From Bacteroidaceae bacterium (GTDB lineage Bacteria; Bacteroidota; Bacteroidia; Bacteroidales; Bacteroidaceae), in the NCBI GenBank assembly GCA_017548075.1, contig JAFYNL010000026.1:1-34694 (forward strand): DNA of 34,694 nt, given 5' to 3'. A model generated the notes under the pieces. That model was not told the DNA's origin and ran no database searches. It saw nothing but the letters and a program-made list of their open reading frames with translations. Position numbers and translations under genes: made by a program. Shown one piece after another: positions 6,687 to 34,607 of this stretch; within the stretch, counting starts at the first letter, position 1; each line of letters begins with the position of its first letter.

Positions 6687-6876
6687 CACGGCTAGTTACG
6701 TTGGCAATCATAACACGTTAAGTTGGCAAACATAACACGTTAAGTTTGGCATCGTAACACGTTAAGTTTACAAACTACCTTAAGGTTGTTGGCAAAGTAC
6801 CTTAAGGTTGTTGGCAAAGTAGGCACGTCTAGTTTGCCAATTAGGTACGCCTAGTTTATCAACTAGACACGTTGCA
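6687..6876. repeat. 22-bp-phased palindromic array 1 (8 cores)
   Basis: Eight 8-bp cores near TTTGCAAA start at 6701, 6723, 6745, 6767, 6789, 6811, 6833 and 6855, exactly 22 bp apart. The 14-bp linkers are imperfect palindromes that change along the array: TAACACGTTA three times, then ACCTTAAGGT twice, then versions with AGG on one arm and CCT or TCT on the other. The left cap holds GCTAGTTACG next to a short A tract (a T tract on the minus strand). The array lies between the terminator of the right giant gene and the promoter of the left one. It belongs to the same family as the four arrays further right. Confidence 0.9.
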
Positions 6877-6882
6877 TAAGAA

Positions 6883-6915
6883 AAGCCCCCTGCAGAACTT
6901 GTCCGCAGAGGGCTT
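6883..6915 (-). terminator. Intrinsic terminator of the right giant gene
   Basis: Two 11-nt arms, AAGCCCCCTGC (6883-6893) and GCAGAGGGCTT (6905-6915), pair with one mismatch around an 11-nt loop. On the minus strand the stem is followed by TTTTCTT. It lies about 50 nt after the stop codon of the giant gene that ends at 6967. Confidence 0.8.
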
Positions 6916-6966
6916 CGATTATGTCTAGTTCGCTAGGTCAACTAGCTCAACTAGTTCTGGACTTTC

Positions 6967-9900
6967 TTACTGTGCTGCCATGAGGTTCAGGACTGCAACG
7001 AAGTCGGCAATAGTAACGTCACCATCACCATTCACGTCTGCATTACCTGGAACAGTCTGACCAGCCATTGCATTCAGAACAGCTACGCCGTCGGCAATAG
7101 TAATCTGACCATCACCATTCACATCACCCTTCATGCCCTTGCCGATGCCGTTACCAGGAGTAACAACAACCTTAGGCATGCCAGGAACTGTGTAGCGGCT
7201 GAACGTCTCAGTGCCACCGGAAGCAACATAGAGGTTGTTAGCCCAGTCGAATGCGAAGCTTGAAATGCTGCTTTCCCTAACAGCGAGAGTTTGCTTCGGG
7301 TTCAGGAAGATCTTGCCATTCTCCATAGGAACGTAGTTGCACTCGTAGATGACAATCTTGCCGCTGCCGTTTGGCATAGCGATGTAGTTGCCGTCGGGAG
7401 TTACAACAACCTTGCCACCACCTGTGTTAAGTGTGATGTTGCTGTAGTCCTCATTGCCTTCAGCATCGAAGTGCTTGATGGCAGGACGTTCAGCAGATGC
7501 TGTAACAGACTGGATGAACCAGAGGCCACCCTGACCGTCAGCACAGATACCAACGTGGCTCGGCTGATATGTATAGACGCCATCGAGACCTGCAACATAA
7601 CCAGAAGGAGCAGCAGTCCATTCGGTAGCAGTACCGAGGTTGTAGAATGCGCAGTTGAAGTCGGTAGTGTTTGCATTACCATCGCTGAGCTGTCCACCCA
7701 GTACATACATCTTCAGGGCTTCGCCCTTACCTTCGAATGCCAAGCCAATAGCCATACGGTTCTGCTCGTCGTCGCCAACATAAGTGATACCTGTAGCTTC
7801 GTCGAGTTCACCACCTGTAAAGACAGGCTTCCAAGGTTCGTTGAGGTCTTCAGGATTGATCTCCCAAACAGAGCTGTTGCTTGTACCAGAAGCACGAGCT
7901 ACGAAGAGACGTCCGTCTGGTGAGAACTGGAGATCCTTCATGTCATACTTGAGACCATTGGAAATAACGAGAGCTGAACCATCCACAATCTCCTGTGGGA
8001 TAGGCAGATCACCATAGAAGCCGGGAGTGCCGTCAGCAGCATTGATAGGCTTGAAGTCCTGATCGTATGCGAAGAGAGCACCAGACTTTTCTGTGGAGAT
8101 ATAACCAGCAGGATATTGTGTTGCCCATGTCTCTGCAATCATTACCTGGCCGAAGCCCTTGCTTGCAGGATTGTTGTTGACTGCCATTCCGTAAGGAGCC
8201 CATACCTTATATACGTCACCTATGCGGAGAACATCAAGAGAACCCTTACCTGTAACAGCAATCTTGAAGTTGAGAGCTGCAGGATTCTCACCAAGGTTGC
8301 TTGCATCAACGGTTATGCTCTGTGCTCCAGGAGCGAAGTCATCTCCTTCTGCATCGGCACTGTAAACCAAAGTCTCACCATCGTAGAATTCAACCTTAAC
8401 GGCTTCAGCCTCTGCATTGAGCTTGAAGTTCACAACAACCTTGTCGCCACCTAAGCTAGCATCGAGGTCGTATGCAAATGCATTGAGCTGAGGATTCGGC
8501 TTGTCGTTAGTGTACTGACCAGCATAGTAGTAAACCACATCACCACCAAACAGATGAGGAGTTTCTTCAACACCAAGTGTCTGGAACCAGTGAGCGTCGT
8601 CACCAGTCTGGTCGTTCAGCTTCCAACAAATCTCACCGCTTGCCAACTGCTCTGCTGTTGCAGGCGAGGATATCTTTGTATCATTTTCACGGAAGAACTG
8701 AGGATATACATAGACATTGGTCGGACTACATGCTGCACCACGACTAATAGTGCGGGAGTTGTCACCATCTACACCTACATTCTCGTACTGAGAGAGAATC
8801 AACGTGTTCTGAATCTTAAGAGATGCATCTGCCCAACCTGCAACACCGCCAAAGTACCAGTGTGGGTTGTCACCCTCACCAATAACGTGAGTATTGACGA
8901 GACAGTTGCTGATAAGGCTGTTAGCACTGCCGTTGCGACCAATCAAGCCACCAGAAGAGGTATCGCCTGAAAGGTTGGGAGCAAGATACAAGGTAGCTTC
9001 AACCTCGACATTGTCGACGGTTGACTTGCCGGACATCCATCGTGTGAGAGGACCTGTGAACTGATGGCTGGTGTGGAACTCACCAGTCAGCTTGAAGTTC
9101 TTGGCGGTTGCGTTCTGCAACTCATAGAACAGAGTTGCAGGCTCTGCATACTCACCCGAAGGAATATTGGCGTCATCAATATAAACATTGGTAAGCGCAT
9201 GACCTTGACCGTCGAACTCGCCAGCAAAGATATGCACACCACCTTCACCTCTGTTATGACCGATTGGCAACATAGCAATGCCTGCCATATCGATATCAGC
9301 GATGAGTTTACCCTTGGCATATTTATCGATGTCACTTGCAATTGCACGGTAAGCAACAAACTGGTTGACAGTGCCAATGAGATAGTAGCCCTTCTCATCT
9401 TGTGCTGGCAAAAGATCCTTTAATTCTGGAACGTCCAGAACTGCAGGATTCAGAGCTTCCTCTAAGCTATATGAACCTTCTCCATATGCTCTGTAAATTG
9501 CATCACATGCATCATCAATAGCATCAAGAGAGTTGTCTAATACACAATCTCCTGTTTCGAACCATTCACCACTTTCTTCATCCTTCTCAACATAAGCCAA
9601 ATTGCCAGTTGATGACAGGAGTTCCAAGAGGGTTGCCTTGTTGTACATAGCGATGTAAGCCTGCTTGGCTTCATAGATGCGCTGGAAGATATCGGAGAAG
9701 GTTGCAACAAGAGCAGCCTTGTCTTCTACTGTAGCGGCACCTGCAACTGCATCAAGAGCAGCCTGGAGTTCTTCCTTCATAGAAGCAGGGAAGTTAGGAC
9801 CTGCAGCTGGATCAGTTGCATCTTCATCCCAAATATAGTCGATGAGAGTCTGAGCACGAGCACTCATGTTCTCGAGAACTGTGCTGAGAGCATCGTCGGC

Positions 9901-12900
9901 AGCATCACCGCAGTAGGTCAAAGTGAGGGGACCCCAACCAGTCCAGTCACTGCTGTACTGCGTGCCGGGATTCTTAATACCTACAGTAAGTTTACCGTCT
10001 TCACCTACATAAGCAATGGTGTAAGCCTGATAACGACCGGCCTTTGCAGCAATTGCCATACCGGTCTCACCATGAACAGCATAACCGAGAAGTTCTGCAC
10101 CGTTTGCTTCTGCCTGCTCCTCGCTAGTAGAAAGGTTATCATCGTAGATAGCAAGGTCATATGCACTCTTGATAGTCAGGTTACAGTTTACTCCATCTTC
10201 AGCCTCATCAACAGGAACCATGTCCTCGATGACTGTTGGGAAGTAGTTGAAGATATCATTAGCATAGACACCTGCAGCATAGTTAGTGCTGTAGCGGTTG
10301 TTGCTGGGACGGAAAGCACCATTGATACCTACAAGGTAATAACCGGGCTTCATGTTCTCAAGAGTCTGATACATGTCGCCAGTCCTGTTCCAAGCCTCAA
10401 CGCCAGTATAGGTCTTGCCTGCATCGTCTTGAGTTGCGCCCCAACCACTACCGAAGCCACCTGTCCAGCTTTCATTCTGCTTGCTGAAGTCAGAGTTGGG
10501 AAGCATCTTGCTGATGTCAGAGCCGGCAGCATAGTCGGCAGCAAGAGCATCGGCAAGCCACTTGTCAACACGCTCTGTCTCTGCCTTGATTTCCTCGGCA
10601 GTAGCAGTGTGGTTCTCTATGATGTACTCGTAAGAACCAAGAGGATTCTCTTCGCTGGGTTCTTCATTATTACTCTCAGAGAGATAGCTTTCGAGAGATG
10701 TACGTAATTCACCAGAGAAGGTGTCGTTAGAAGCAAGGAATGCCTTGACTTCCTCGCACTTGTCGATGTAAGCCTGCCAATCAGCAGCATTTTCATCGAC
10801 AGCCTGCTTAGCAGCATTCAAAGCGTCGAAAGCAGTAGCAAAATCAGCAATTGTCTCAGCATCTTCCAATGCCTCGATAGCTGCCTCGAGTTCGTCAAGC
10901 AGACTCTGGGTTGCGATAACACCCTCATAAGCTTCGCTCTCGTATTCCTTGATTGCAGAAGCAACGCTAGCTATGTCGCTTTCATTGAACAGAGAGAAGT
11001 ATTGCTCTGCACCATAGATAACTACACCGTGATCACCCCATGGATAAGGATGCGCATCCTCTTCGATTGTCTGATACCATGAAGGCTCCAGGAATTGCTT
11101 TTCGTTCAGGTTGTAGCAAAGAGCGCCACTGGCAACGTCCTCAAGCGGAAGAGTAATCGTCAGGCGATCTGCAGCCGTTGGGTTGTAGTGCTGCTGCTTG
11201 TTTTGGGCAACGCCTTCGATATCTGCCTCATAGCAGTTGATAACCTTTGCAGAGCCACGAGTGAAGGAGTCGCTCGAGTAGATAGATGCTGATGGCATTT
11301 GGCAAGTACTCCAGCAATTCTTAACCACAGAACCGCTGCCGGAGTAACCGCAGATAGCGCCAGACTCGACACCGCCTGTAATTACACCTGATACCCAGCA
11401 ATTGGTAATCATCATATTCATCGAACCGCCAGAGCAGCAACCGATGATACCTGCTGCGTTACGAGTGCCTACGCCAACCGTACCTTCGAAACCAACGCCC
11501 GTGATGTAAATCGTACCACTACCATCGGTGCTACCAATAACACCAGCGTAGTTTCCACTATACAGACTACATGTTTCATCCATAACAAAGTCATGGATGT
11601 TGGCGCCATCAATGATCGTAGCAATCAGACCATTATAGTTGTTGTTGTTTTCAAGGACAAAGTTGCTGATGGTATGTCCTTGACCATCGAACTCGCCAGA
11701 GAACTGATATACTTGAGCGTAGCGTTCCATGTAGTCGCTCATGTCGATGTCGGCAGTCAGGCGTGCGCATACATCAGGATGTGCAACAGCGTAGTTAGTC
11801 CACCATGCAAGTTCTGCACCATTGCTTATCTCGAACCAGCCATCGACGGGAGTTATGAAGTTTTCATCAAACTTACCGCAGTTGACACACCAGCCATCTA
11901 CAAACTGATGAGGAGGTATAACTGCCTCGCCAGTAGAACTATTGGTGTAGGAGAAACCTTCTCCAATAGGTGTGCCGTCGCAGTTGAATTGACCTGCAGA
12001 AGTATAGACGAGACCGCCTTCCTTAGGAATAGGCATAGGCTCTGGGTCTGTGCCAATCACTTGGAAGAAACGCTCCAAACCATTCTGCTTGCCATTCAGG
12101 AAGAATGCAAGTTCACCACTGGCAACACCTTCAATATTCGGTGTACGCTCGCCATCATCAGAAACAGTACCGAAATAAGTGTACTTGTCATGATCAGAAA
12201 CAGCGTTTCCGAAAATAGGATTAAGAACATACACATTCTCCGTGACAACACTGCCCGGGTTACGAGCGATGTTCTGCGAGTTTTCTGTATTAGTGTCAAG
12301 CGTCTGGTTACCAGCACCGATGATGTTACCGATCACAGCACAATTGGTGTAAGTGGTCTTTGCTGCAGTCCAACCTGCAAAGCCACCCACGCGTGCGCAA
12401 TCGGAACCTCCATCCGCACCTGGCAGAGTTAAGGTACCTGCATAGATACAGTTCTCGACGCGTTTTTCCTGGCTACCTGTCCAGCCGAAGAAGCCGCCAG
12501 AGGTGTTGTCGCCTACAACAGTAGAGGTGATGTCTACGTCAGAATAGACGTTGCGAATCAAAGCGTTGCGGGCTTCTGCGCAGAGAGAGCCAACTCGTGC
12601 TCCGTTTGTCTGGAGTGAGCCATGCAAGATGAGGTTCTCAATGTTACCAGCCATCTCGGGGAACAAACCTGCATAGCCGTCGACTTCGGATATTTCCATG
12701 GTGAAAGAGTGGCCCTGACCGTCGAAGTTACCGTCAATCCAGTCTGTGCGGTTGAAAATATATTGTCCAGGTTCTGCGATGTACTCGATGTCGTTCTCCA
12801 ACTTCATGTTGAGCTTGAAGCCGTTGCACATACGGTTTATACCTTCTGCAACATCAATGTCTTCCTTACTCTTCAGGAGGACTGCTCTGTCCTTCTGGTC

Positions 12901-14022
12901 GAACTTAGTAGGATCATCGGTTTCGAAGTAATGGAAATTGAAGCAGCCACACTTGGTGCAGATTCCATACTTGTCGAAAGTGTGCGGAGTGGCCTGAGCA
13001 GTTCCGCTGTTTGAGAAGGTCAGTTCACCTTCGCTCTTACCGTCACAATCGGTAGCAGCAGAAGCATAGACCCGACCTGTGCCGAATGCTGCGGGAACGG
13101 GGAAGGCATCTGTACCAATCCTCTGTACCCAACCAATACGGCTCTGGTCGTTGTTCAGTTGATAGCAGATACGGCCATCAGCCAAGTCCTCATATGCCAC
13201 AACGGTTGTAGCTACATTGTCGCCCCACTGCTGGGTGACGTAGTTGTTGTAGCAAGCGCCCATTCCTTTGCCGCTATCACGGTAGCCATAAGGGTCTGCA
13301 TTGTACGTCTCGACATCAATGGCATTTACTCTGCTGTCGTTACGGGCAATGTTGCGGCTAAGACCGGTGGAAAGGTCAAAAGCACTCTCGTCACTGAGAA
13401 CAAGACAGTTCATAATGTTGACAGGGTTCTCTGCCCAACCAACGACACCACCGCAGTTCTGGGTGGTCTCACCTACGATGGCAGTCTGTACAAGACAGTT
13501 CTCAACGATTGTACCGCTGTAGCCAACAGCAACGATACCGCCGTGGGTGGCATCACCTGGCATTGAACTGTTAATCTTGACATCTGCCCAGCAGTTGCGG
13601 ACAGTACCTCTACCCCTGCCGACGATACCAGCGGCAAACTTGCTAGCCGTTGTAATGGTACCCTCAACCTTCAGGTTCTGGATGACGGCACGCCAACCGA
13701 TGTAGCGGAAGATGCCGGCATCACCTGCCTCGGGGAACAAGTTGATTTTGATGGTGTGTCCCTGACCGTCGAAAGTACCGTCATAGCGTTTGCCCTGTTG
13801 GTCGGCAACGCCAATCATCGTACCATCAACGCCAGTGTCTATGTCGCTTGTCAGCACGGCACAGGCATTGACTTCACCACCATTCACGAGTGCAGCAAAC
13901 TCTTCCCAGTCTGCTGCAGAACCAATCTGATAGACTCCATTCACTTCAGAAAGAGCCCATGCAACTGTGGAGACCATGCTTAACAGCACAGCCAAACACA
14001 GATTCAGTAGTTTTTTACTCAT
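6967..14022 (-). CDS. Giant secreted GLUG/beta-helix protein with dockerin-like tail, right paralogue
   Basis: 2351 residues. A signal peptide (1-23, ending AWA) is followed by beta-helix modules with FDGQGH at residues 84, 433, 778 and 1603, and many GLUG-type segments such as GGVVGW. The first three modules are separated by short His/Cys motifs (H347..C355xxC358 and H705..C712xxC715) that resemble a zinc knuckle. Residues about 1010-1165 and 1375-1540 are helical (FIVAR-like). Residues 1174-1370 look like a carbohydrate-binding beta-sandwich. Residues about 1935-2285 resemble a beta-propeller. The C-terminus (2299-2340) carries two DVNGDG calcium loops as in type I dockerins. There is no visible lipobox or type IX sorting domain. 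The likely place is the cell surface or outside; the ligand is unknown. It is a tandem paralogue of the gene at 1-6444. Confidence 0.95.
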   Translation of the reverse strand: MSKKLLNLCLAVLLSMVSTVAWALSEVNGVYQIGSAADWEEFAALVNGGEVNACAVLTSDIDTGVDGTMIGVADQQGKRYDGTFDGQGHTIKINLFPEAGDAGIFRYIGWRAVIQNLKVEGTITTASKFAAGIVGRGRGTVRNCWADVKINSSMPGDATHGGIVAVGYSGTIVENCLVQTAIVGETTQNCGGVVGWAENPVNIMNCLVLSDESAFDLSTGLSRNIARNDSRVNAIDVETYNADPYGYRDSGKGMGACYNNYVTQQWGDNVATTVVAYEDLADGRICYQLNNDQSRIGWVQRIGTDAFPVPAAFGTGRVYASAATDCDGKSEGELTFSNSGTAQATPHTFDKYGICTKCGCFNFHYFETDDPTKFDQKDRAVLLKSKEDIDVAEGINRMCNGFKLNMKLENDIEYIAEPGQYIFNRTDWIDGNFDGQGHSFTMEISEVDGYAGLFPEMAGNIENLILHGSLQTNGARVGSLCAEARNALIRNVYSDVDITSTVVGDNTSGGFFGWTGSQEKRVENCIYAGTLTLPGADGGSDCARVGGFAGWTAAKTTYTNCAVIGNIIGAGNQTLDTNTENSQNIARNPGSVVTENVYVLNPIFGNAVSDHDKYTYFGTVSDDGERTPNIEGVASGELAFFLNGKQNGLERFFQVIGTDPEPMPIPKEGGLVYTSAGQFNCDGTPIGEGFSYTNSSTGEAVIPPHQFVDGWCVNCGKFDENFITPVDGWFEISNGAELAWWTNYAVAHPDVCARLTADIDMSDYMERYAQVYQFSGEFDGQGHTISNFVLENNNNYNGLIATIIDGANIHDFVMDETCSLYSGNYAGVIGSTDGSGTIYITGVGFEGTVGVGTRNAAGIIGCCSGGSMNMMITNCWVSGVITGGVESGAICGYSGSGSVVKNCWSTCQMPSASIYSSDSFTRGSAKVINCYEADIEGVAQNKQQHYNPTAADRLTITLPLEDVASGALCYNLNEKQFLEPSWYQTIEEDAHPYPWGDHGVVIYGAEQYFSLFNESDIASVASAIKEYESEAYEGVIATQSLLDELEAAIEALEDAETIADFATAFDALNAAKQAVDENAADWQAYIDKCEEVKAFLASNDTFSGELRTSLESYLSESNNEEPSEENPLGSYEYIIENHTATAEEIKAETERVDKWLADALAADYAAGSDISKMLPNSDFSKQNESWTGGFGSGWGATQDDAGKTYTGVEAWNRTGDMYQTLENMKPGYYLVGINGAFRPSNNRYSTNYAAGVYANDIFNYFPTVIEDMVPVDEAEDGVNCNLTIKSAYDLAIYDDNLSTSEEQAEANGAELLGYAVHGETGMAIAAKAGRYQAYTIAYVGEDGKLTVGIKNPGTQYSSDWTGWGPLTLTYCGDAADDALSTVLENMSARAQTLIDYIWDEDATDPAAGPNFPASMKEELQAALDAVAGAATVEDKAALVATFSDIFQRIYEAKQAYIAMYNKATLLELLSSTGNLAYVEKDEESGEWFETGDCVLDNSLDAIDDACDAIYRAYGEGSYSLEEALNPAVLDVPELKDLLPAQDEKGYYLIGTVNQFVAYRAIASDIDKYAKGKLIADIDMAGIAMLPIGHNRGEGGVHIFAGEFDGQGHALTNVYIDDANIPSGEYAEPATLFYELQNATAKNFKLTGEFHTSHQFTGPLTRWMSGKSTVDNVEVEATLYLAPNLSGDTSSGGLIGRNGSANSLISNCLVNTHVIGEGDNPHWYFGGVAGWADASLKIQNTLILSQYENVGVDGDNSRTISRGAACSPTNVYVYPQFFRENDTKISSPATAEQLASGEICWKLNDQTGDDAHWFQTLGVEETPHLFGGDVVYYYAGQYTNDKPNPQLNAFAYDLDASLGGDKVVVNFKLNAEAEAVKVEFYDGETLVYSADAEGDDFAPGAQSITVDASNLGENPAALNFKIAVTGKGSLDVLRIGDVYKVWAPYGMAVNNNPASKGFGQVMIAETWATQYPAGYISTEKSGALFAYDQDFKPINAADGTPGFYGDLPIPQEIVDGSALVISNGLKYDMKDLQFSPDGRLFVARASGTSNSSVWEINPEDLNEPWKPVFTGGELDEATGITYVGDDEQNRMAIGLAFEGKGEALKMYVLGGQLSDGNANTTDFNCAFYNLGTATEWTAAPSGYVAGLDGVYTYQPSHVGICADGQGGLWFIQSVTASAERPAIKHFDAEGNEDYSNITLNTGGGKVVVTPDGNYIAMPNGSGKIVIYECNYVPMENGKIFLNPKQTLAVRESSISSFAFDWANNLYVASGGTETFSRYTVPGMPKVVVTPGNGIGKGMKGDVNGDGQITIADGVAVLNAMAGQTVPGNADVNGDGDVTIADFVAVLNLMAAQ

Positions 14023-14125
14023 AGAATGATTTGTTTGGTTAATAAATAAGGTTAATTACTGGTTTTTCTTTTGTTATTTATGCGTATTGCCTAGCAAAGA
14101 TAGAGTTTTTTCTTTTTGCTTCAAA
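14023..14125 (-). promoter_or_regulatory. Promoter and leader of the right giant gene
   Basis: On the minus strand TTTG (14122-14125) and TATCTTTG (14095-14102) are separated by 19 bp, a good match to the Bacteroidetes promoter. The roughly 70-nt leader shares GCTAG, CAGTAATTAAC and TTTATTAACC with the leader of the left paralogue. Confidence 0.75.
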
Positions 14126-14251
14126 ACTTTTTAACACTTTTCTTTGCTCTAAAGACTTTTTTGTGAAAAAAGTATAAGAAAGGGAAAAACCATACAAATA
14201 ACAGTAAAGAAAAGGAAGGAAAAAGATGAAGAAAGCCATTCGGCACTAAGC

Positions 14252-14296
14252 AAAAAAAAAGTTCGCTAGTGAAGTCGGTCAACTTCACACGTGAAC
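14252..14296 (-). terminator. Terminator formed by the last unit of array 2
   Basis: Two successive array linkers (14261-14274 and 14283-14296) pair over 11 of 14 positions, with the 8-nt core (14275-14282) as the loop. On the minus strand nine consecutive T follow (14252-14260). This has the form of a rho-independent terminator for transcription leaving coaD. Confidence 0.65.
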
Positions 14297-14384
14297 TTTG
14301 CCAACAACACACGTGAAGTTTGCCATTTTCACGTGTGAAGTTTGCCAACGACACACGTGAAGTTTGCCAACGACACTGGGGTTG
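14261..14384. repeat. 22-bp-phased palindromic array 2 (5 cores)
   Basis: Cores start at 14275, 14297, 14319, 14341 and 14363, all 22 bp apart; four are TTTGCCAA or TTTGCCAT. The linkers use TTCAC/GTGAA arms around ACGT in place of the TTAAC/GTTAA arms of the other arrays. The right cap (CACTGGGGTTG plus T tract) runs directly into the coaD stop codon. The left end is a terminator-like hairpin with a run of nine A (T on the minus strand). The rest of the 14023-14387 gap is the promoter and leader of the giant gene plus A/T-rich sequence. Confidence 0.9.
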
Positions 14385-14387
14385 TTT

Positions 14388-14831
14388 TTAAGGGAGGAAC
14401 GCTGAGATGTCCTGACCAAAGTGTGCAAGTTCGCGAACAACCGAACTGCTGAGGCTTGCGAACTGTGGTGAAGCAGGAAGGAGAACTATCTCAATGCCCG
14501 TAAGTTGCTTGTTTACATCGGCCATTTGCAACTCGTATTCGAAGTCCGCAACGGTTCGAACGCCTCGAACAATCGCGTTGACGCCTTTCTCTTTGGCAAA
14601 TTCGACAGTAAGTCCAGTATAGCTCTCCACCTTTACTCGCGGTTCGTCGGCATAGATTTTACGTATCTTTTCGACTCTCTCCTTTACTGGCATCCATCCA
14701 GGCTTCTGCTCGTTATAGCCGACGGCCACAATGATTTCGTCGAAAAGAGCAAGTGCTCTCGTCACAATATCTGCGTGACCTTTAGTAAAAGGATCAAACG
14801 AACCAGGGAAAAGAGCGAGCCTACGAAGCAT
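14388..14831 (-). CDS. coaD: Phosphopantetheine adenylyltransferase
   Basis: 147 residues, slightly shorter than most family members. It catalyses the penultimate step of coenzyme A synthesis (4'-phosphopantetheine plus ATP to dephospho-CoA) in the cytoplasm. The nucleotidyltransferase signature GSFDPFTKGH is at residues 10-19 and the C-terminal SSSVVREL matches the conserved ISSTxVRE motif. The ATG shares one base with the stop codon of the upstream topoisomerase gene (TAATG), which suggests translational coupling. Downstream, the stop codon touches the cap of array 2. Confidence 0.95.
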   Translation of the reverse strand: MLRRLALFPGSFDPFTKGHADIVTRALALFDEIIVAVGYNEQKPGWMPVKERVEKIRKIYADEPRVKVESYTGLTVEFAKEKGVNAIVRGVRTVADFEYELQMADVNKQLTGIEIVLLPASPQFASLSSSVVRELAHFGQDISAFLP

Positions 14832-16819: not shown

Positions 16820-16823
16820 AGTC

Positions 16824-17975: not shown

Positions 17976-18012
17976 ACGCGTTTTTGCTTCCTTTTATCGC
18001 ATAATTATCGTG

Positions 18013-18020
18013 CAAATATA
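18013..18020 (-). promoter_or_regulatory. Possible -7 element for the GNAT-parE-coaD operon
   Basis: TATATTTG on the minus strand, 38 bp before the GNAT start, fits TAnnTTTG. No convincing -33 TTTG lies 19-21 bp upstream, so support is partial. Confidence 0.45.
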
Positions 18021-18092
18021 CTATTTTTTGCTGACATTTTCGGCATTCAAAGCACAAAAATCTGCAAAAAACAACATTTTTTAATTTTTAGG

Positions 18093-18116
18093 GACCTTCA
18101 GACCTTGAAGGACCTT
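18093..18116. repeat. Three GACCTT repeats with a small hairpin
   Basis: GACCTT occurs at 18093, 18101 and 18111, and CCTTCA/TGAAGG within it form a 6-bp inverted repeat. It lies between the GNAT promoter region and the terminator of the beta-galactosidase gene. Its function is unknown. Confidence 0.5.
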
Positions 18117-18125
18117 AACAAGCTA

Positions 18126-18151
18126 AAGAAAAAACTACCCTAGAGTAGTTT
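18126..18151 (-). terminator. Intrinsic terminator after the beta-galactosidase gene
   Basis: The 7-bp stem AAACTAC (18132-18138) and GTAGTTT (18145-18151) has a 6-nt loop. On the minus strand the stem runs into TTTTTTCTTT. It overlaps the outermost core of array 3. Confidence 0.65.
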
Positions 18152-18236
18152 CCAAACGACTGCAGTTACGTTTGCAAAGTTAACGTGTTATGATTGCAAA
18201 CTTAACTCGTTACGATTGGCAACGTAACTGCAGTCA
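18149..18236. repeat. 22-bp-phased palindromic array 3 (4 cores)
   Basis: Cores at 18149, 18171, 18193 and 18215 are 22 bp apart (TTTCCAAA, TTTGCAAA, ATTGCAAA, ATTGGCAA). A perfect 13-bp inverted repeat, GACTGCAGTTACG (18158-18170) and CGTAACTGCAGTC (18223-18235), encloses the inner three. The sequence between also pairs imperfectly, so the whole array could fold into one long hairpin. It sits just after the stop of the beta-galactosidase gene and before its terminator. The 17976-18268 gap otherwise holds the GNAT promoter region. Confidence 0.9.
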
Positions 18237-18268
18237 TTTTTAATCGCACCTATAGAAGTCCGTTTTCG

Positions 18269-23237
<4,969 letters not shown>

Positions 23238-23257
23238 AGTTTGATGCTTGCAGAGCA

Positions 23258-23289
23258 CAAAGTTAGGAAAAAATGTTGAGAAAAACAAA
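23258..23289 (-). promoter_or_regulatory. Promoter of the kinase/beta-galactosidase operon
   Basis: On the minus strand TTTG (23286-23289), a 20-bp gap and TAACTTTG (23258-23265) match the Bacteroidetes promoter. The position fixes the kinase start at 23237. Confidence 0.78.
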
Positions 23290-23368
23290 TCTTGCAGTTC
23301 TTTTCTGTCTGATTTTGTTTTAAAATCTGCGCTTTCGCACCTTTTGTGTAAATTTTTGTGCTATTTTC

Positions 23369-23399
23369 TTGTTTATTTCGACATTTTGTTTTAATTTTG
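23369..23399 (+). promoter_or_regulatory. Promoter of the S24-type regulator
   Basis: TAATTTTG (23392-23399) fits TAnnTTTG. A weak -33 (TTG at 23369) lies 20 bp upstream. It diverges from the kinase promoter about 80 bp away, so one bound regulator could affect both. Confidence 0.55.
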
Positions 23400-23428
23400 T
23401 ACTCGAAAACAAAACAGAAGATGAGCGT

Positions 23429-24163
23429 ATGACCGTAGAAGAGAAGATTAGCATTCTGGTGGAGCGTTTCTGCCGTAATCGCTCGCATTTGGCAGAAATG
23501 ATTGAAGTTTCGCCTCAAACTCTCAACAATTGGGTTTATCGAGATCGGCTTCCCAAACGAGGAATCGACGCCATAATGAGGCGTTTTCCGCAAGTGGATC
23601 AAGAGTGGCTTCGTGGAGGCAGCCTTCCTCTTTCTGGCGGACAACTTCCCCTTCCCGACGAAGATGAAGAGGAGAATAATGAGTTTCTGGCAGCCAATTC
23701 GGGCTCTCAATTCGGGCAAAAGGGGACAACTCGCCAATCGAATAACGCTCCTAACAATAGGAATTCGGCCTATTTCGTGTCGAATGTTCAGCCCTCACTT
23801 GGGGATGGGCCGCAACCAGAGGCAAAGGAAGGGCTCGTTCCGCTGCAGATGCCTCGCAAAGATGTCAAATATGTCTTCCAATGTCATGGAGACAGCATGC
23901 TTCCTCGCATTCAGGATGGCGACTATGTTGGTGTGGGTGAGGCACTTGGACGCTATGAAGAGTTCCGCAAAGGAGTTCCCTATCTCGTCCAGACAACCGA
24001 TGGTCGGCTGATGGTTAAAATGGTGGAAGATCCAGGAGCAACGTCTCCTTTCCTCCTGCTCAGCACAGAGAATCCCGACTATCAGCTGGCCGATGGAGGC
24101 AGGCTCGCTAAGAGTGAATTCCGCGCAGCCTATCGAGTTTTGATGGTAATGCGAGACATCTAG
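23429..24163 (+). CDS. CI/LexA-like transcriptional regulator with S24 peptidase domain
   Basis: 244 residues from ATG at 23429; the upstream extension lies over the promoter. Residues 1-62 form a CI-type helix-turn-helix (HLAEMIEVSPQTLNNWVYR). Residues 65-145 are an acidic then N/Q/S-rich linker. The C-terminal S24 domain has the catalytic Ser156 in CHGDSMLPRIQDGDYV and Lys197 in DGRLMVKMVED. Regulators of this type can respond to DNA damage or other stress, sometimes by self-cleavage; I see no clear Ala-Gly cleavage site. It could be a prophage relic, but no phage genes are near. It is divergent from the sugar kinase operon and convergent with recQ. Confidence 0.85.
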   Translation: MTVEEKISILVERFCRNRSHLAEMIEVSPQTLNNWVYRDRLPKRGIDAIMRRFPQVDQEWLRGGSLPLSGGQLPLPDEDEEENNEFLAANSGSQFGQKGTTRQSNNAPNNRNSAYFVSNVQPSLGDGPQPEAKEGLVPLQMPRKDVKYVFQCHGDSMLPRIQDGDYVGVGEALGRYEEFRKGVPYLVQTTDGRLMVKMVEDPGATSPFLLLSTENPDYQLADGGRLAKSEFRAAYRVLMVMRDI

Positions 24164-24182
24164 GAGGACTTTAAGTTTAGGG

Positions 24183-24292
24183 TTTCAAAACAACCCCAGT
24201 TAAGTTGTCAAACGTAACAGGTTAAGTTTGCAATCATAACACGTTAACTTTGCCAACGTAACTGCAGTCATTCGACAACGACCCTAGTTGCA
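24183..24292. repeat. 22-bp-phased palindromic array 4 (3 clear and 2 weak cores)
   Basis: Clear cores start at 24205, 24227 and 24249; weaker ones at 24183 and 24271 keep the 22-bp step. The inner linkers are CGTAACAGGTTAAG and CATAACACGTTAAC. The left cap CAACCCCAGTTAAG faces the stop of the S24 gene and the right cap CGTAACTGCAGTCA faces the stop of recQ. The array therefore lies between two convergent genes and fills the whole gap. Confidence 0.88.
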
Positions 24293-24296
24293 TCTG

Positions 24297-26204
24297 CTAA
24301 GATTGCTGGGGAGCTTTCAAAAGTGGACCTTCGAAGACGATTTCTCCATTTGCCCTCATTCTGTCGACAACCTCTTCGAGAAGACCGGCTTCAAAGCCCG
24401 CAAAGTCCAATTCGTAAGAGTTGCGAGGCCCTTCACGAAGCTGGTTCAAGATGTGCAAACGCAGAGTTTCATAAGCCTCCTCTGGTTGCGAATGTCCTTT
24501 CTTGCGCTTGCAAACGTCGCAAATGCCGCAGTCTTCCGTTGCTTCTTCGCCAAAATATCGCAACAACAAACGGCTGCGGCAATAATCGCTACTCGGCTCA
24601 ATATACTGCAACATTGCCTTTATGCGCTCCTCATAATGCTTGCGGCGCTCCTCATAAACTTGAGCAGGAAGCGAAATCTTCTCTTTGTCGATTCGACGTT
24701 GGCGGAAAGTGACGCAAGGAAGGTGTTTTCTTGGAATGAACGAGATGAGGTGAAGTTGCGAAAGTCGCAGGAAAATCTGATAGACTTCATCAGTCGTCTT
24801 TCCCGTTTCGCGACTCAACATTTCCTCATCAATAAAGACATAATCCACGAAAATGCCACCATAATGACGGAGGACAGCTAGGATAAGTCGCTCGTCTGAA
24901 GGGTAAAGAGAGCGGAAAAGCTCTGTTCGAGTGACATTTATGCGCAACCGACTCGAGGATTCATCTTCGTCGCGATAGGCAATATAACCTGCTTTGTCGA
25001 GCAAGTCGAGAGCATGAACAAGCGTATTCGGGAAGTAACCATAGTTCAGACAGAACTTTTCCAAGTTGAATTCGCGAGTTACATTCAGCCCATCTCCCTC
25101 GGCAATTCCCAAGAAACAGCAAAGCATTTCGTAAACTTCGCGCACATAATCGAGTTTCGGAAACTGCTGAGCAAGCCGAGTTGACATACGTTTTCGCTCT
25201 CCTCCATCAGTCAGGAGAATCGCGTAAGCCTTTTCTCCGTCTCTTCCTGCTCGGCCAGCCTCTTGGAAATAGGCTTCTATGGAATCCGGCATATCTGCAT
25301 GAAGCACCAAACGCACATCAGGTTTGTCAATTCCCATACCAAAAGCGTTGGTCGCCACCATGATTCGAATCTCGTCTCGACGCCAGCGTTCTTGACGTTC
25401 ATTCTTTTGAAGACTCTGTAAACCAGCATGATAGAAGGTGGCGGAGAAACCTAAGTCGTTGAGTTGGCTAGCAAGTTCCTGGCACTTTCTTCGGCTTCGA
25501 GTATAGATGATGCAAGAGCCTGGAATGGACTGAAGAGCACGCACTATGCCACCAAAAATCTCGTCTTCAGGCTGAACTATATATGCCAAATTGTCCCTCG
25601 TAAAACTCATTTTCAGCACATTCTCCTCGCGAAAACGAAGCTTTTGCTGAATGTCGGCAACCGTCTTCTTCGTTGCCGTAGCCGTAAGAGCAAGGATAGG
25701 ACAATCGGGGAAATAGTCTCTGATAGCGGAAATCTCCAGATAAGAAGGTCGGAAATCGTAACCCCATTGACAGATACAATGTGCCTCATCAACCGTTATG
25801 AAGCACACTTCCATTCGACGCAACTTGTTCAGAAACATCGAACTCGCAAGGCGTTCAGGAGAGATGTACAGGAATTTGTAAGCTCCAAAAATGCTGTTTT
25901 CCAAGATGGTCAACACCATTTCGTGCTCCATATGACTGGTAATGTATGCAGCCTTTATGCCTCGACGACGCAAAGCCTCAACCTGATCCTTCATCAGAGA
26001 AATGAGAGGCGTAAAGACTATGCAGACGCCTTTCATCGCGAGGGCTGGCACCTGAAACGTTATACTCTTTCCTCCGCCAGTCGGCATCAAGCAAAGAGTG
26101 TCACGACCAGCACCTATGCTCTCTATGACCTCTCGCTGAATGCCACGAAAATCTTCATAGCCCCAGTACTTTTGAAGTATGGAAAGATAATCTTTTTCCT
26201 GCAT
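24297..26204 (-). CDS. recQ: ATP-dependent DNA helicase, RecQ family
   Basis: 635 residues from ATG at 26204, which has GGGAG about 10 nt upstream; a GTG at 26222 is the alternative. Helicase motifs are Walker A PTGGGKS (about 42-47), DEAH (139-142), ALTATAT and motif VI QEAGRAGRDG (314-323). A zinc-binding Cys set (about C542, C559, C562, C565) has the C-16-C-2-C-2-C spacing of E. coli RecQ. It lies some 165 residues further from the helicase core than in E. coli, and the extra stretch looks helical or winged-helix-like. No HRDC domain is visible. RecQ unwinds DNA 3'-5' in recombination and repair. It follows recJ by about 40 nt, and the two enzymes cooperate in E. coli. Confidence 0.92.
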   Translation of the reverse strand: MQEKDYLSILQKYWGYEDFRGIQREVIESIGAGRDTLCLMPTGGGKSITFQVPALAMKGVCIVFTPLISLMKDQVEALRRRGIKAAYITSHMEHEMVLTILENSIFGAYKFLYISPERLASSMFLNKLRRMEVCFITVDEAHCICQWGYDFRPSYLEISAIRDYFPDCPILALTATATKKTVADIQQKLRFREENVLKMSFTRDNLAYIVQPEDEIFGGIVRALQSIPGSCIIYTRSRRKCQELASQLNDLGFSATFYHAGLQSLQKNERQERWRRDEIRIMVATNAFGMGIDKPDVRLVLHADMPDSIEAYFQEAGRAGRDGEKAYAILLTDGGERKRMSTRLAQQFPKLDYVREVYEMLCCFLGIAEGDGLNVTREFNLEKFCLNYGYFPNTLVHALDLLDKAGYIAYRDEDESSSRLRINVTRTELFRSLYPSDERLILAVLRHYGGIFVDYVFIDEEMLSRETGKTTDEVYQIFLRLSQLHLISFIPRKHLPCVTFRQRRIDKEKISLPAQVYEERRKHYEERIKAMLQYIEPSSDYCRSRLLLRYFGEEATEDCGICDVCKRKKGHSQPEEAYETLRLHILNQLREGPRNSYELDFAGFEAGLLEEVVDRMRANGEIVFEGPLLKAPQQS

Positions 26205-26244
26205 TTTGATATGATCTCCCACAGGGAAGAAGCAAAGAAGGGCT

Positions 26245-27966
26245 TTATTCTATGGGCTTTATGTCTTCTATCTGCAGCTGAATCTCACCCCGTTTGTGGC
26301 TGTTTTCCTCGATGTGATAGACGATGTCGAAAGCTCGTTTGGTCTTTATATAACGGGCCTGCGAGCTTTGTCCAAAGGCGATTCCGTTCATCACATTGCT
26401 GCTCTTCGAATCCACAAGCTCCAGCTTGATGTGCTCTTGGTCGCGACCAACGACTTTACTGGTGCCGTAGTCGTACACTTGACGCGTGCAAAAGAGCGGT
26501 TTATGGTTGTCGGGACCATAAGGAGCAAAGCGTTTGATGTCGGAAACGATACGCCTATTTATGTCGCGGAAGTCAATAACTGCATCAATTCGAAGTATTG
26601 CGTTGACTTGTTCGGGCTGGATGTGTTCCCTTACATATTGCTCGAAACGATGACGGAACTCAGGAATGTTCTGCGCAGGCATACTCAATCCTGCCGCATA
26701 AGTATGGCCGCCAAAGTTCTCGAGCAAGTCGGAACAACTCTCTATTGCCTTATAAACGTCGAATCCTGGCACGCTTCGAGCAGACCCAGTCGCCATTCCG
26801 TCGTCATTACAGGTGAGGACAACACTCGGTTTATAAAAGACTTCTGTGAGGCGAGAAGCAACTATTCCGATAATACCACGATGCCATTCCTCGTTGTAAA
26901 GGACAATAGACTTGTGTTCGTGACGATGTTCGAGAGTCTTGACGATACGGTTCGCCTCCTCTGTCATAGACTTGTCCAAGTCCTTTCTCTGCTCGTTGTA
27001 TTCGTTTATCTGCTCTGCTTTCTCTTTGGCAGCCTGGGGGTCTTTCTCGATGAGAAGTGCTACGGCTTCATTTCCCGTCTGCATTCTGCCCGAAGCATTT
27101 ATGCGAGGTCCTATCTTAAAGATAATGTCGCCTAGAGAAATCTCCTTATTCTTCAGTCCGCATATCTCCATAAGTGCTTTCACACCTGTGCTTGGAGAAC
27201 TGTTCAACTGACGCAATCCGTGGTAAGCAAGGATGCGATTCTCACCCATGATAGGCACGATATCTGCCGCAATACTAATGGCACAAAGGTCAAGTAAAGG
27301 TATTAACTGAGAGAATTCGATGCCGTTGTTGAGAGCAAACGCCTGGATAAGTTTGAAACCGACGCCGCATCCACAAAGGTGCTCATAAGGATAAGTATTG
27401 TCGAAGCGCTTAGCGTTGAGGACTGCCACAGCTGGTGGCAATTCATCGCCAGGCACATGATGGTCACAGATGATGAAGTCGATGCCTTTCTCCTTAGCAT
27501 AGGCAATCTCTTCAGTCGCCTTGATGCCGCAGTCAAGAACTATAACCAGACCGACTCCTGTTTCACAGGCATAGTCCACACCTTTGCGGGAAACTCCGTA
27601 GCCGTCTTCATTTCGGTCGGGTATGTAATAGTCGATATTGCTATAGAACTGCTGCAGGAAGCGATAGACAAGGGCAACTGCTGTGCATCCGTCAACATCG
27701 TAGTCGCCGTAAACAAGGATGCGTTCCTTGCGTCCAAGCGCTTCGTTGAGGCGGTTCACAGCCTTCTGCATATCCTGAAAGAGGAAGGGATCGTGCAGAT
27801 CAGTCAGTTGTGGACGGAAGAACTTTCTTGCGTCCTGTACTGTGTTTATGCCGCGAGCTATAAGCACACGACCAAGTACAGGGCTGATTTTCAGCTCTTC
27901 TGCCATCTCAACTGCAAGCCTTTGCTCAGCTTCAGAAGGCGGATTATAGCTCCACTCGTAGTTCAT
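26245..27966 (-). CDS. recJ: Single-stranded-DNA-specific exonuclease RecJ
   Basis: 573 residues, the usual RecJ length. DHH-family motifs appear in order: VYGDYDVDG, VIVLDCG, the DHH itself in IICDHHVPG, then GPRINASGRM, and the DHHA1 signature GGHTYAAGLS toward the C-terminus. RecJ degrades single-stranded DNA 5'-3' with Mn2+ or Mg2+ in recombination and mismatch or base-excision repair. It starts 24 nt after the CoA-transferase gene and is followed by recQ, so these three are probably one transcript; the link between the CoA-transferase and repair genes looks positional only. Confidence 0.95.
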   Translation of the reverse strand: MNYEWSYNPPSEAEQRLAVEMAEELKISPVLGRVLIARGINTVQDARKFFRPQLTDLHDPFLFQDMQKAVNRLNEALGRKERILVYGDYDVDGCTAVALVYRFLQQFYSNIDYYIPDRNEDGYGVSRKGVDYACETGVGLVIVLDCGIKATEEIAYAKEKGIDFIICDHHVPGDELPPAVAVLNAKRFDNTYPYEHLCGCGVGFKLIQAFALNNGIEFSQLIPLLDLCAISIAADIVPIMGENRILAYHGLRQLNSSPSTGVKALMEICGLKNKEISLGDIIFKIGPRINASGRMQTGNEAVALLIEKDPQAAKEKAEQINEYNEQRKDLDKSMTEEANRIVKTLEHRHEHKSIVLYNEEWHRGIIGIVASRLTEVFYKPSVVLTCNDDGMATGSARSVPGFDVYKAIESCSDLLENFGGHTYAAGLSMPAQNIPEFRHRFEQYVREHIQPEQVNAILRIDAVIDFRDINRRIVSDIKRFAPYGPDNHKPLFCTRQVYDYGTSKVVGRDQEHIKLELVDSKSSNVMNGIAFGQSSQARYIKTKRAFDIVYHIEENSHKRGEIQLQIEDIKPIE

Positions 27967-27990
27967 TGTTAGTTACTGAAACTCGGGAGC

Positions 27991-29502
27991 TTACTTAATA
28001 TACTCTGCAAAGTCGGTCAGATGCATATCACCTTTACGCAAGAAGGTATCGTGCATAGCGAAGGCAGCGGCAAGTTCGTGATGTGTATGTCCGCTTCTCT
28101 TCTCTGCATACTTCAGGTAATCTTGCAACATAGGACGATAGTCGGGATGTGCCACCTTGATGAGTTCCTGTGCTTTCTGCATGTCGCTCTTGTGACGAAG
28201 GTCAGCTACACCATACTCCGTAATGACTGCATCTATGTAGTGATTCGTGTGATCTATGTGACTTGCGAAGGGAACGATGCTGGAGATAGCGCCTCCCTTT
28301 GTGGTAGAACCGCAGGTAAAGATGGTGAGATAGGCATTTGCGGCGAAGTCAGCAGAACCTCCAATTCCGTTCATCATCTTGGTGCCACAGATCTTTGTAC
28401 TGTTCACATGACCATAAAGGTCACATTCTATGGCCGTATTCAACGCGCAAACTCCCAGTCGAGCTATAACCTCGGGACAGTTGCTAATCTCTGAAGGACG
28501 CAATACCAACTTGTCCTTGAAGAAGTCGATGTTGTCGTAAATGTCGAGCAGACACTCGTTTGTGACCGTCAGAGAGCAAGCAGAAGCGGAAAGTACGCGT
28601 CCTTGCTTCATCAGGCCGACAGGAGCATCCTGCAGAACCTCTGTGTAGATATTGAAGTTAGGCACTTCCGGACATTGTCCAAGAGCACCCAAAACGGCGT
28701 TTGCTCCGCTGCCAACTCCACTCTGCAAGTTGAGGAAAGTCTTCGGAATGAGACCTTTCTTGAGGTTGAGGAGCAGGAAGTCTGCCACATTCTGACCAAT
28801 TTGAGTGGTGATGGGATCTGGGTCTTTGAAGCTACGAGCCTCATCAGGAACGTTACATTCCACAACTCCAACGATTCTGTCGGCATCCACTTCGATGTAA
28901 GGTTTGCCAATACGATCACTCGCTTTAGTAATCATGATGGGTGTGCGGAAAGGATGATCCTCTATCTCATAAACGTCGTGAATGCCCTTACTGTTGGGGC
29001 TGTGGAATGCGTTAAGCTCCACAATGATGCCTTCAGTCGCGAGTCGACAAACGGTAGGACTGATGCCTCCAGCTGCCGTAAGATAGATGTGAGCCTTGTT
29101 GCCCACTTTCTCTATTGCGCAAGCCTCAATGATAGCCCAATTCACCTGACCAAGATAGCCCTGACGAATCTGGGTTGCCATGTTCGAGAGGTTGAGGTCG
29201 GAGTAGTTCAGAGTGTTCTGATTGACGTTCTTTCGAAAGTCAGGATTGGTGGTATAAGGTGCGCGGAAGTCGATTGCCATTGCATTCGAGAGGTCACCAT
29301 CGCAACTTTGTCCTGTACTTGCACCTGTGAAAATGCTGATTTTGAAGGGTCGTCCAGCCTCGTGTTCAGCGACTGCTTTCTTCGCAATCTCAGCTGGAGT
29401 ACACTTCGCGACGCCTGCTGGAGTAAAACCACTCAGGCCAATTGTTTGTCCATTTTGGACAAGAGCTGCAGCTTCGGCAGCGGTCATTCTATTGAAGTCC
29501 AT
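27991..29502 (-). CDS. Acetyl-CoA hydrolase/transferase family, probable succinyl-CoA:acetate CoA-transferase
   Basis: 503 residues, the family length. It has the N-terminal GLSGFTPAGVAK, the segment SGVGSGANAVLGALG, the active-site Glu in NIYTEVLQD (E288) and GIGGSADFAANAY in the CoA-binding part. Members exchange CoA between succinyl-CoA, acetate or propionate. In Prevotella-type fermentation such an enzyme fits succinate, propionate or acetate formation. The exact acid pair cannot be set from sequence. It has its own promoter with an inverted repeat around it, and is followed 24 nt later by recJ. Confidence 0.9.
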   Translation of the reverse strand: MDFNRMTAAEAAALVQNGQTIGLSGFTPAGVAKCTPAEIAKKAVAEHEAGRPFKISIFTGASTGQSCDGDLSNAMAIDFRAPYTTNPDFRKNVNQNTLNYSDLNLSNMATQIRQGYLGQVNWAIIEACAIEKVGNKAHIYLTAAGGISPTVCRLATEGIIVELNAFHSPNSKGIHDVYEIEDHPFRTPIMITKASDRIGKPYIEVDADRIVGVVECNVPDEARSFKDPDPITTQIGQNVADFLLLNLKKGLIPKTFLNLQSGVGSGANAVLGALGQCPEVPNFNIYTEVLQDAPVGLMKQGRVLSASACSLTVTNECLLDIYDNIDFFKDKLVLRPSEISNCPEVIARLGVCALNTAIECDLYGHVNSTKICGTKMMNGIGGSADFAANAYLTIFTCGSTTKGGAISSIVPFASHIDHTNHYIDAVITEYGVADLRHKSDMQKAQELIKVAHPDYRPMLQDYLKYAEKRSGHTHHELAAAFAMHDTFLRKGDMHLTDFAEYIK

Positions 29503-29506
29503 GTTT

Positions 29507-29586
29507 TGATGTGTTAAATTTTGCGCACAAAGTTACAAAAAAAAATGGAGATTTGCACCCTTTGTAAGTCTTTTTAACACACATCA
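29507..29586 (-). promoter_or_regulatory. CoA-transferase promoter flanked by an inverted repeat
   Basis: TAACTTTG (29528-29535, minus strand) fits a -7 element, with no clear -33. TGATGTGTTAAA (29507-29518) and TTTAACACACATCA (29573-29586) are inverted copies apart from a 2-nt insertion. One lies just before the start codon, the other upstream of the promoter. Confidence 0.5.
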
Positions 29587-29599
29587 ACTAGGATTTCTT

Positions 29600-30187
29600 T
29601 CAGATGAGGCTCTTTTTGAAGAGAGAAAGGTAGTTTTTCGTCATTGCTTCAAGCAAATTTGTCGAATTTATGCCTCTCAAGTTTGCCACATTATTATATA
29701 ATTCCTCGATGGAACGCTCCTCATCTGCATCAGTTTCGAGCAACAGTCTGTCAATCGGACAGATACGCAAACTTTCCTCATTAAAAGCGAAGCCGAAACT
29801 GACGAAAAAGCCTGCATCGAGGAGTGAACGCAGTTGCTGAGGTTTGCCTCGGAAGCCGTGAAGCATCCACATCTGTTTGGGTTTCAAGTCTTTATGCAGT
29901 TGCAAGAGTCTGTCTAACGCTTTAACACAATGGATGATGAGAGGTTTCTCAACTTCCTCGCTCAGTTTGATTTGTTGAACGAAAACTTCCTCTTGCCTTT
30001 CCATCGAAGGTCCACGCAAGCCATCAAGCCCGCATTCCCCTATCGCAAGCTTGCCTGAAAGGTCAGGAACGACGAACTCCTCAGCCGCTTTCCAAGGATG
30101 AATGCCCCAAGTTTCGCGACCTTCAACAATCGCAACAACTTCCTTCGAAACAGGAACTTTGTGGGTGTGGAAATCGATATAAAACAT
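29600..30187 (-). CDS. TatD-family metal-dependent hydrolase
   Basis: 195 residues, shorter than the usual 250-260. The metal ligands of the amidohydrolase-like TIM barrel are visible: DFHTH (H7, H9), IGECGLD, IIHCVKA, LHGFRG and LLETDAD. TatD proteins are Mg2+-dependent 3'-5' exonucleases or related DNases. The shortened barrel belongs to a sub-group common in Bacteroidetes, so DNase activity is an inference. It starts 27 nt after array 5; I see no promoter that is not part of the array. Confidence 0.85.
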   Translation of the reverse strand: MFYIDFHTHKVPVSKEVVAIVEGRETWGIHPWKAAEEFVVPDLSGKLAIGECGLDGLRGPSMERQEEVFVQQIKLSEEVEKPLIIHCVKALDRLLQLHKDLKPKQMWMLHGFRGKPQQLRSLLDAGFFVSFGFAFNEESLRICPIDRLLLETDADEERSIEELYNNVANLRGINSTNLLEAMTKNYLSLFKKSLI

Positions 30188-30213
30188 CAGGATTTTTTAC
30201 GAGGCTTAGTTAA

Positions 30214-30323
30214 ATTCAAAAGTTAACGTGGTTAAATCGAAAAGTTAACGTGTTAAGTTGGCAAAGTTAACGTGTTACGTTGGCCATTTTAACGTGTTAT
30301 GTTTGCAATCGTAACTGGGGTTG
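30214..30323. repeat. 22-bp-phased palindromic array 5 (5 cores)
   Basis: Cores at 30214, 30236, 30258, 30280 and 30302 are exactly 22 bp apart; the first two are degenerate (ATTCAAAA, ATCGAAAA). The inner linkers are nearly constant (GTTAACGTGTTAAG and variants). The right cap CGTAACTGGGGTTG plus TTTT faces the yidD stop codon, 17 nt away. The left end runs into the leader of the TatD gene. Confidence 0.9.
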
Positions 30324-30340
30324 TTTTCTCTCGTCACTTT

Positions 30341-34542: not shown

Positions 34543-34561
34543 TTTCTTAAGTTTGCGGCTG

Positions 34562-34569: not shown

Positions 34570-34578
34570 CGAAAAAAA

Positions 34579-34606
34579 GTTGAAAGTTGAAAGTTGAAAT
34601 TTGAAA
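34579..34606. repeat. Four 7-bp repeats (GTTGAAA)
   Basis: GTTGAAA three times and TTTGAAA once, in tandem, between the divergent metK and right-edge promoters. Such heptamer runs are prone to slippage and could change promoter spacing. Confidence 0.7.
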
Positions 34607-34607
34607 G

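Follow-up and report, generated by a model that had tools for sequence, protein, structure and literature searches.

The stretch analysed here (the window: 34,694 bp, contig JAFYNL010000026.1 of assembly GCA_017548075.1, Bacteroidaceae bacterium) carries five intergenic arrays in which a palindromic unit recurs at exact 22-bp steps, and such arrays occur throughout the draft genome of this rumen bacterium (2.66 Mb, 66 contigs). We give about an even chance to the view that they are rows of double-stranded binding sites, two helical turns apart, for a putative dimeric protein, and that their sequence turns over between species. They are read as sites for a DNA-binding dimer mainly because, between two sister species, the palindrome is held while the spacer is free.

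Phase, dyad symmetry and constraint of the unit

A BLAST search with the fifth array of the window as query gave at least 49 matches in the genome (40 of 270 candidates scored). Two samples were analysed: 416 kb consisting of the window and 20 stretches picked for holding a BLAST match (chosen sample), and 266 kb in 20 more stretches not picked by matches (unbiased sample). At a self-match score of at least 42, the chosen sample contained 49 regions at lag 22, while the other lags from 14 to 40 summed to a single region (lag 23); at a score of 40, the unbiased sample gave 19 regions at lag 22 and no more than one at any of the remaining lags between 14 and 33. The unit profile placed 267 units on the chosen sample, 266 of them within 58 arrays of at least two units, and neighbouring strong units were 22 bp apart in 164 cases and 44 bp apart in three, with no other spacing within 70 bp. 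The unbiased sample held 25 arrays (9.4 per 100 kb) with 58 unit spacings of 22 bp, one of 33 bp and one of 44 bp; at this density, about 250 array places are estimated for the genome. Trained on the 416 kb and run on 683 kb, the profile detected 83 chains at 22-bp spacing and none on the reversed sequence; set to other spacings, it found none at 18-20 or 23-26 bp and four at 21 bp. What the earlier note had seen in five gaps is thus a genome-wide family, and its description of a fixed spacing with a drifting sequence is borne out.

The profile consensus CGTTAAGTTTGCAAACTTAACG was taken from the 416 kb with strands pooled and was symmetrised, its perfect palindrome being partly built in. Dyad symmetry was tested on unsymmetrised consensus sequences of the arrays, with a mean z of 2.72 (49 arrays) and 69% at p<0.05; the same test gave 34% of 32 in close species and 11% of 38 in distant ones. 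Linkers are palindromic around a centre that is itself asymmetric and reads GT or AC in 150 of 208. Terminal linkers are unlike inner ones: of 166 ends, 25 carry CTGCAG and 15 carry CTGGGG. In the flanks, information was at background from about 11 bp outwards, with no conservation. The alternation of dyads about every 11 bp, which the earlier note had related to the helical turn, is indeed seen, but it is not independent evidence of helical phasing because one dyad in a 22-periodic sequence forces another 11 bp away.

Orthologous arrays were compared between the sister genomes G011 and G023, in which collinear BLAST matches around arrays show about 87 to 97% identity. Thirteen of the 24 G011 arrays lay in a long collinear match and were aligned, the others having no counterpart in the sampled stretches or running past a stretch end. 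The substitution rate of the arrays was 10.8%, compared with 12.5% for intergenic DNA outside them and 5.9% for coding sequence, the last two rates being inflated by the pair L167:17875, the non-homologous flank of which was cut for the palindrome test. This test covered 35 sites from eleven orthologous GGTTAACC arrays, a site being included if at least one of its two copies matched with no more than one mismatch. Only 2 of 280 palindrome bases (eight per site) had changed, as against 56 of 490 at the remaining 14 unit positions and 147 of 1513 in flanking intergenic DNA (palindrome versus flank, Fisher p 2e-9). The palindrome centre TTAA was unchanged (0 of 140) and is therefore not a free loop. 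In this sister pair the palindrome is near-frozen including its centre, and the sequence of the spacer is free. Length varies by units: one array is one whole unit apart between the sisters, and another shows a net difference of 22 bp at its edge. In the array at L167:13004-13179 (against L177), a GGCAC against GCCAC change is found in all five units of one sister's array. The comparison of insertions and deletions between the sisters was too noisy for use.

Spacing and palindromes in related genomes

By RecJ, the nearest named relatives were two metagenome-assembled genomes, RGIG2699 (Bacteroidaceae bacterium, goat omasum; 94%) and RUG12173 (Bacteroidales bacterium; 89%), the rest among 80 listed being at most 77% identical. 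In seven close genomes (RecJ 92-94%, 349 kb), 36 regions reached the score threshold of 40 at lag 22, and no other lag between 12 and 35 had more than 4; 26 further genomes of the genus contained 13 such regions, with no more than 3 at other lags, and 14 genomes of other families in the order contained none. Lag 22 was also on top, at the same threshold, among other Bacteroidales, where 78 loci gave 42 regions and no other lag exceeded 13. Examples are loci of Prevotella denticola, Leyella lascolaii, Parabacteroides and Bacteroides, and of the cultured species Prevotellamassilia timonensis (L073) and Parabacteroides bouchesdurhonensis (L094). Fewer regions appeared in these loci (L023-L100) at lags 21 (13), 16 (12) and 24 (12).

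Sister species keep the phase and, at the one locus checked, mostly also the place, with other palindromes. This locus is the spacer between yidD and tatD, which holds a 22-bp array in the genome studied here, G026, G005, G035, G011, G023 and RUG12173. The array type is common to G011 and G023 and differs in the others; in G034 a single unit is present, which is of the G005 type, and G012 lacks the spacer.

Array palindromes, the families of which include CCGC-GT-GCGG, CCCTATAGGG and TTAAC-GT-GTTAA, were counted in 61 genomes of the genus. Backwards patterns served as control (0 to 3 per strand and genome), and in two-strand sums a single site may count on both strands. So counted, the linker pattern TTAACRYGTTAMG had 301 matches in the genome of the window, 124 in G075, 49 in G005, 25 in G011, 20 in G023 and at most 10 elsewhere, and CCCCTATAGGGCG had 160 in G005, 19 in G034 and at most 1 elsewhere. 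Per strand, AAWGGTTAACCWTT was found 192 times in G011, 189 times in G023, not at all in the genome of the window and at most once elsewhere, and GCCGCRYGCGGCG 132 times in G026, 64 times in G075 and at most 6 times elsewhere. The G012 pattern matched two exact sites there and one in G033; either the pattern is too strict or the family is small. The palindrome is thus replaced between related species. It is possible, if somewhat doubtful, that the arrays form a Bacteroidales-wide class of chromosomal element set by geometry and not by sequence. From species to species such a class would exchange its whole set of palindromes, probably together with the protein that binds them, and keep the phase and many array positions.

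Positions of the arrays in the window and relative to genes

The five intergenic arrays of the window lie where the earlier note had put them, with their cores in exact 22-bp register.

6694..6869, unstranded: array 1, eight 22-bp steps with cores at 6701-6855; the profile fits five units
14268..14377, unstranded: array 2, five cores at 14275-14363; linker type CAC-AC/GT-GTG
18142..18229, unstranded: array 3, four cores at 18149-18215; CTGCAG end linkers
24176..24285, unstranded: array 4, five steps; the unit profile fits three (24198-24263)
30207..30338, unstranded: array 5, cores from 30214; six profile units

Among the regions listed, the lag-22 self-match over 66 bp reached 43-54 at these five gaps and nowhere else in the window; the lag-44 peaks coincide with the five arrays, and at the control lags 11, 20, 21, 23, 24 and 33 the top score was at most 34. 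Along array 1 the linker type shifts from TAAC-AC-GTTA through ACCTTAAGGT to TAGGC-AC-GTCTA. Array 2 lies directly past the coaD stop (14388, minus strand), and array 3 is flanked by the stop of a beta-galactosidase gene (18269) and the next gene. The gap of array 4 is convergent, between a regulator-like plus-strand gene (stop 24163) and recQ (stop 24297), and array 5 lies between yidD (minus strand, stop 30341) and tatD (minus strand, start 30187). Its best other genomic match by E-value, among the matches listed, was 91% over 109 bp. The window further contains two very large adjacent minus-strand open frames, 1-6408 (running off the window) and 6967-14022, the latter ending in what by eye appears to be a dockerin-like repeat. 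An unrelated 7-bp tandem repeat, AAAGTTG, lies at 34576-34609 (4.9 copies). A known RNA family at the arrays was looked for with Rfam models, which matched in the window only a SAM-II riboswitch outside the arrays (34488-34547, minus strand, RF01726, 54 bits, upstream of metK).

The arrays are mostly intergenic and near gene 3' ends. Genes were called by our own script, which missed yidD in the window and may lose small genes, and the junction counts are approximate. In the chosen and unbiased samples together, an array was present at 20 of 50 junctions between convergent genes, at 11 of 50 between divergent genes and at 42 of 412 between co-directional ones. The corresponding counts were 16 of 56, 9 of 65 and 42 of 393 in the seven close genomes (with extra stretches of two), and 14 of 131, 5 of 131 and 16 of 777 in the 78 loci of other Bacteroidales, where six of the 42 lag-22 regions lay inside called genes and two in neither class; some of the regions within called genes may be ordinary coding repeats. 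Array frequency at convergent junctions was thus two to three times that at divergent ones. The unbiased sample, with arrays at 5 of 17 divergent and 9 of 40 co-directional junctions, did not show the divergent depletion of the chosen stretches (arrays in 6 of 22 divergent gaps). Thirteen of 14 convergent gaps of at least 100 bp held an array, a figure that is inflated because the array itself lengthens the gap. In co-directional gaps the array was closer to the 3' end of the upstream gene in 27 of 31 cases (chosen) and 7 of 9 (unbiased). Ten divergent pairs were run against Pfam and five had a family on both sides; one such divergent pair is a prolyl-tRNA synthetase gene next to an OmpA-domain gene. 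The eleventh divergent array sits behind a tRNA-Met gene.

Inside genes, this genome has two weak arrays, with profile totals of 36.4 and 35.7 against a median of 89 over all chains; they bear on the mode of spread. One (L189:13066-13109) is located at the signal peptide of a presumably glycosidase-like protein, and the units of the other (L188:8901-8966) lie within the gene of a presumably TamB-like protein, both labels being based on the look of the sequence. In the glycosidase-like gene the array stretch is gap-free in seven homologues, save one extra residue in one, with one homologue aligning from residue 2 only; the lag-22 score is 37 here, compared with 19-29 in the homologues of the two genes. 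Because these homologues of other species have the same length, the sequence seems to have been overwritten and not inserted, and the case points either to short tracts copied over it or to selection for sites. In the TamB-like gene, four of seven homologues (L210-L213) are gap-free at the array, two show gaps (8 and 11 columns) that adjoin or overlap the array start, and one is longer just upstream; the lag-22 score is 34 here, hardly above that of other lags (up to 33).

Interpretation and comparison with known systems

In vivo, DNA has about 11 bp per turn, and sites 22 bp apart would therefore lie on one face of the helix. A dimeric DNA-binding protein would bind one palindromic site per two helical turns, and bound dimers could contact their neighbours cooperatively along this face. 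The bound array may then mark or insulate intergenic space, as a transcription road-block, a supercoil buffer or a nucleoid organiser. Copying between arrays, by gene conversion or template switching, could spread a new palindrome through the genome, and the partner protein would change along with it.

Several observations weigh against such rows of dimer sites. No binding protein was found, no systematic search having been made; the test of the frozen palindrome covers one sister pair and one family, and many sites in this genome are imperfect. The arrays at 11 of 50 divergent junctions exclude a strict role at 3' ends, and period-21 palindromic arrays occur in close relatives (L112:9493, L113:12391, L116:1368). 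G075 is rich in two patterns, the TTAAC type (124 over two strands) and the GCCGC type (64 per strand), and three array types are found at one G005 locus; several families in one genome would need several partner proteins. Pairing, which is slightly below expectation at most of the variable arm positions, exceeds it at pairs 2/19 (0.69 v 0.63) and 3/18 (0.75 v 0.60) of the core dyad and at 18/3 of the linker dyad (0.77 v 0.68). The excess at 2/19 and 3/18 reflects two half-site types, GTTA and GTGA, although structure would also fit.

The chief rival, which we consider rather unlikely, is a family of repeats that is selfish or neutral, a bacterial satellite in dispersed form, without host function. 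Its units would be copied in register through template switching or gene conversion, the 22-bp step being a property of the copying, and copies would be tolerated mainly away from promoters and codons. This would account for the gain or loss of whole units at an orthologous site (four units in G005, one in G034), for the whole-unit and the net 22-bp difference between G011 and G023, for the GGCAC against GCCAC change shared by five units, for the signal-peptide array that seems overwritten rather than inserted, and for the turnover of families between species. However, orthologues keep the palindrome and not the spacer, whereas both should become uniform if whole units were copied, and neither should be conserved under neutrality. 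A selfish family explains spread and turnover, but not a frozen palindrome beside a free spacer.

The earlier note had left the choice between protein bound to DNA and a run of RNA hairpins; the former is favoured by the frozen palindrome and the lack of a wobble excess, while the latter was not supported. In that view, which we judge improbable, the transcribed array would form hairpins at which mRNAs from either direction end or have their 3' ends protected, comparable to some roles of repetitive extragenic palindromes (REP) and bacterial interspersed mosaic elements (BIME). In its favour, arrays are often just behind stop codons, the rate per junction is highest at convergent ones (20 of 50), RNA folding beats shuffles (mean z about -2.4, convergent -3.3), two arm positions pair above expectation, and the linker centre on the sense strand is AC in 58 cases and GT in 28, a bias that is weak per array (21 mostly AC, 10 mostly GT, 2 ties). 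Yet the arrays show no RNA signatures: G-U and A-C mismatches on the sense strand of co-directional arrays (54 v 58 in cores, 34 v 42 in linkers) reveal no G-U preference, folding z is alike on both strands (sense -2.40, antisense -2.45), and the would-be loop bases are as frozen as the arms in the sister pair. It was on these three points that a hairpin series was rejected as the main explanation. Moreover, RNA hairpins need no rigid spacing, and divergent gaps carry arrays, also where both neighbours match a Pfam family (5 of the 10 pairs checked). Of 12 gene ends with the array beyond 50 bp, 4 had a canonical terminator (G+C-rich hairpin, then U run) in the interval from stop to array, and of 46 ends with the array within 50 bp, 1 had one past the array; the scan finds few anywhere (4 of 60 ends without array) and says little on missing terminators.

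Should the arrays be dimer sites of a class defined by geometry, they would be a bacterial counterpart of fast-evolving satellite DNA and its binding proteins. Sequence searches are blind to an element of constant spacing and symmetry whose sequence changes; a lag-22 scan reveals it at once. If a protein binds, the relatives form a natural series in which specificity changes at hundreds of sites, and they allow a test of the joint switching of a DNA-binding protein and its whole set of sites. The arrays may also point to a boundary or nucleoid factor that is still missing in Bacteroidales.

Phased arrays of this kind were not found described in the open-licence PMC literature, outside which most subscription papers lie. 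The earlier note had suggested a comparison with BrickBuilt, a minisatellite-bearing miniature inverted-repeat transposable element (MITE) of Porphyromonas gingivalis. The passages of PMC4596501 that describe it give a 23-nt unit, 19 copies in ATCC 33277, and a leader and tail with IS5-like terminal repeats and target duplications; one passage reports no BLASTn matches outside P. gingivalis, another copies in some P. gulae strains. According to these passages, BrickBuilt resembles the arrays in being intergenic and tandem, in a dyad-symmetric unit near 22 bp, in the gain and loss of whole units and in single-nucleotide polymorphisms spread at intervals across units; it also comes from the same order. 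Its unit pairs at 9 of 11 dyad positions (p 0.0045, with the degenerate letters of the paper fixed by us). That the arrays are a BrickBuilt-like MITE moved by an IS5-type transposase is nevertheless very improbable. The period is 22 and not 23, the sequence is another one, and the BrickBuilt unit AGAYCATARTATCCTCTCRTRTG has no match with up to three mismatches in the window (the rest of the genome was not searched). Its 12-bp terminal inverted repeats had no copy with fewer than two mismatches near the 83 arrays, and with up to three mismatches they occurred at 39 and 25 of the 83, against 33 and 17 of 83 random windows; no flank is conserved beyond about 11 bp. The suggested comparison thus gave no match by period, by unit sequence in the window or by terminal repeats.

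REP/BIME with their REP-associated tyrosine transposases (RAYT) are likewise short intergenic palindromes in species-specific families that prefer convergent and co-directional gaps, and REP carry GTAG/CGTC tags and GT pairing in stems, according to passages of PMC3733652 and PMC6006769. The arrays differ in their exact head-to-tail 22-bp register and in a genome without a RAYT match. The Y1 transposase family PF01797 had no match in G000, G005, G011, G023 and G035 (72-89% complete), this genome among them, and was present in G012, G026 and G034; a RAYT-driven REP system was rejected on the missing match in this genome. No GTAG/CGTC tag stands out in the unit profile, no formal tag scan having been made.

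In plasmid iterons, of which a replicon origin has a few, a protein binds cooperatively to helically phased tandem repeats of 17-22 bp. They share with the arrays the tandem sites in helical phase and, as judged from the one sister pair, a conserved site with a free spacer. The arrays are chromosomal, however, at an estimated 250 or so places, and this chromosome-wide location argues against an origin role of the iteron type. The sites of SlmA, Noc and MatP are dispersed chromosomal palindromes bound by dimers, and we know of no wholesale swap of them between sister species; theirs are single conserved sites, whereas here the palindromes stand in phased arrays.

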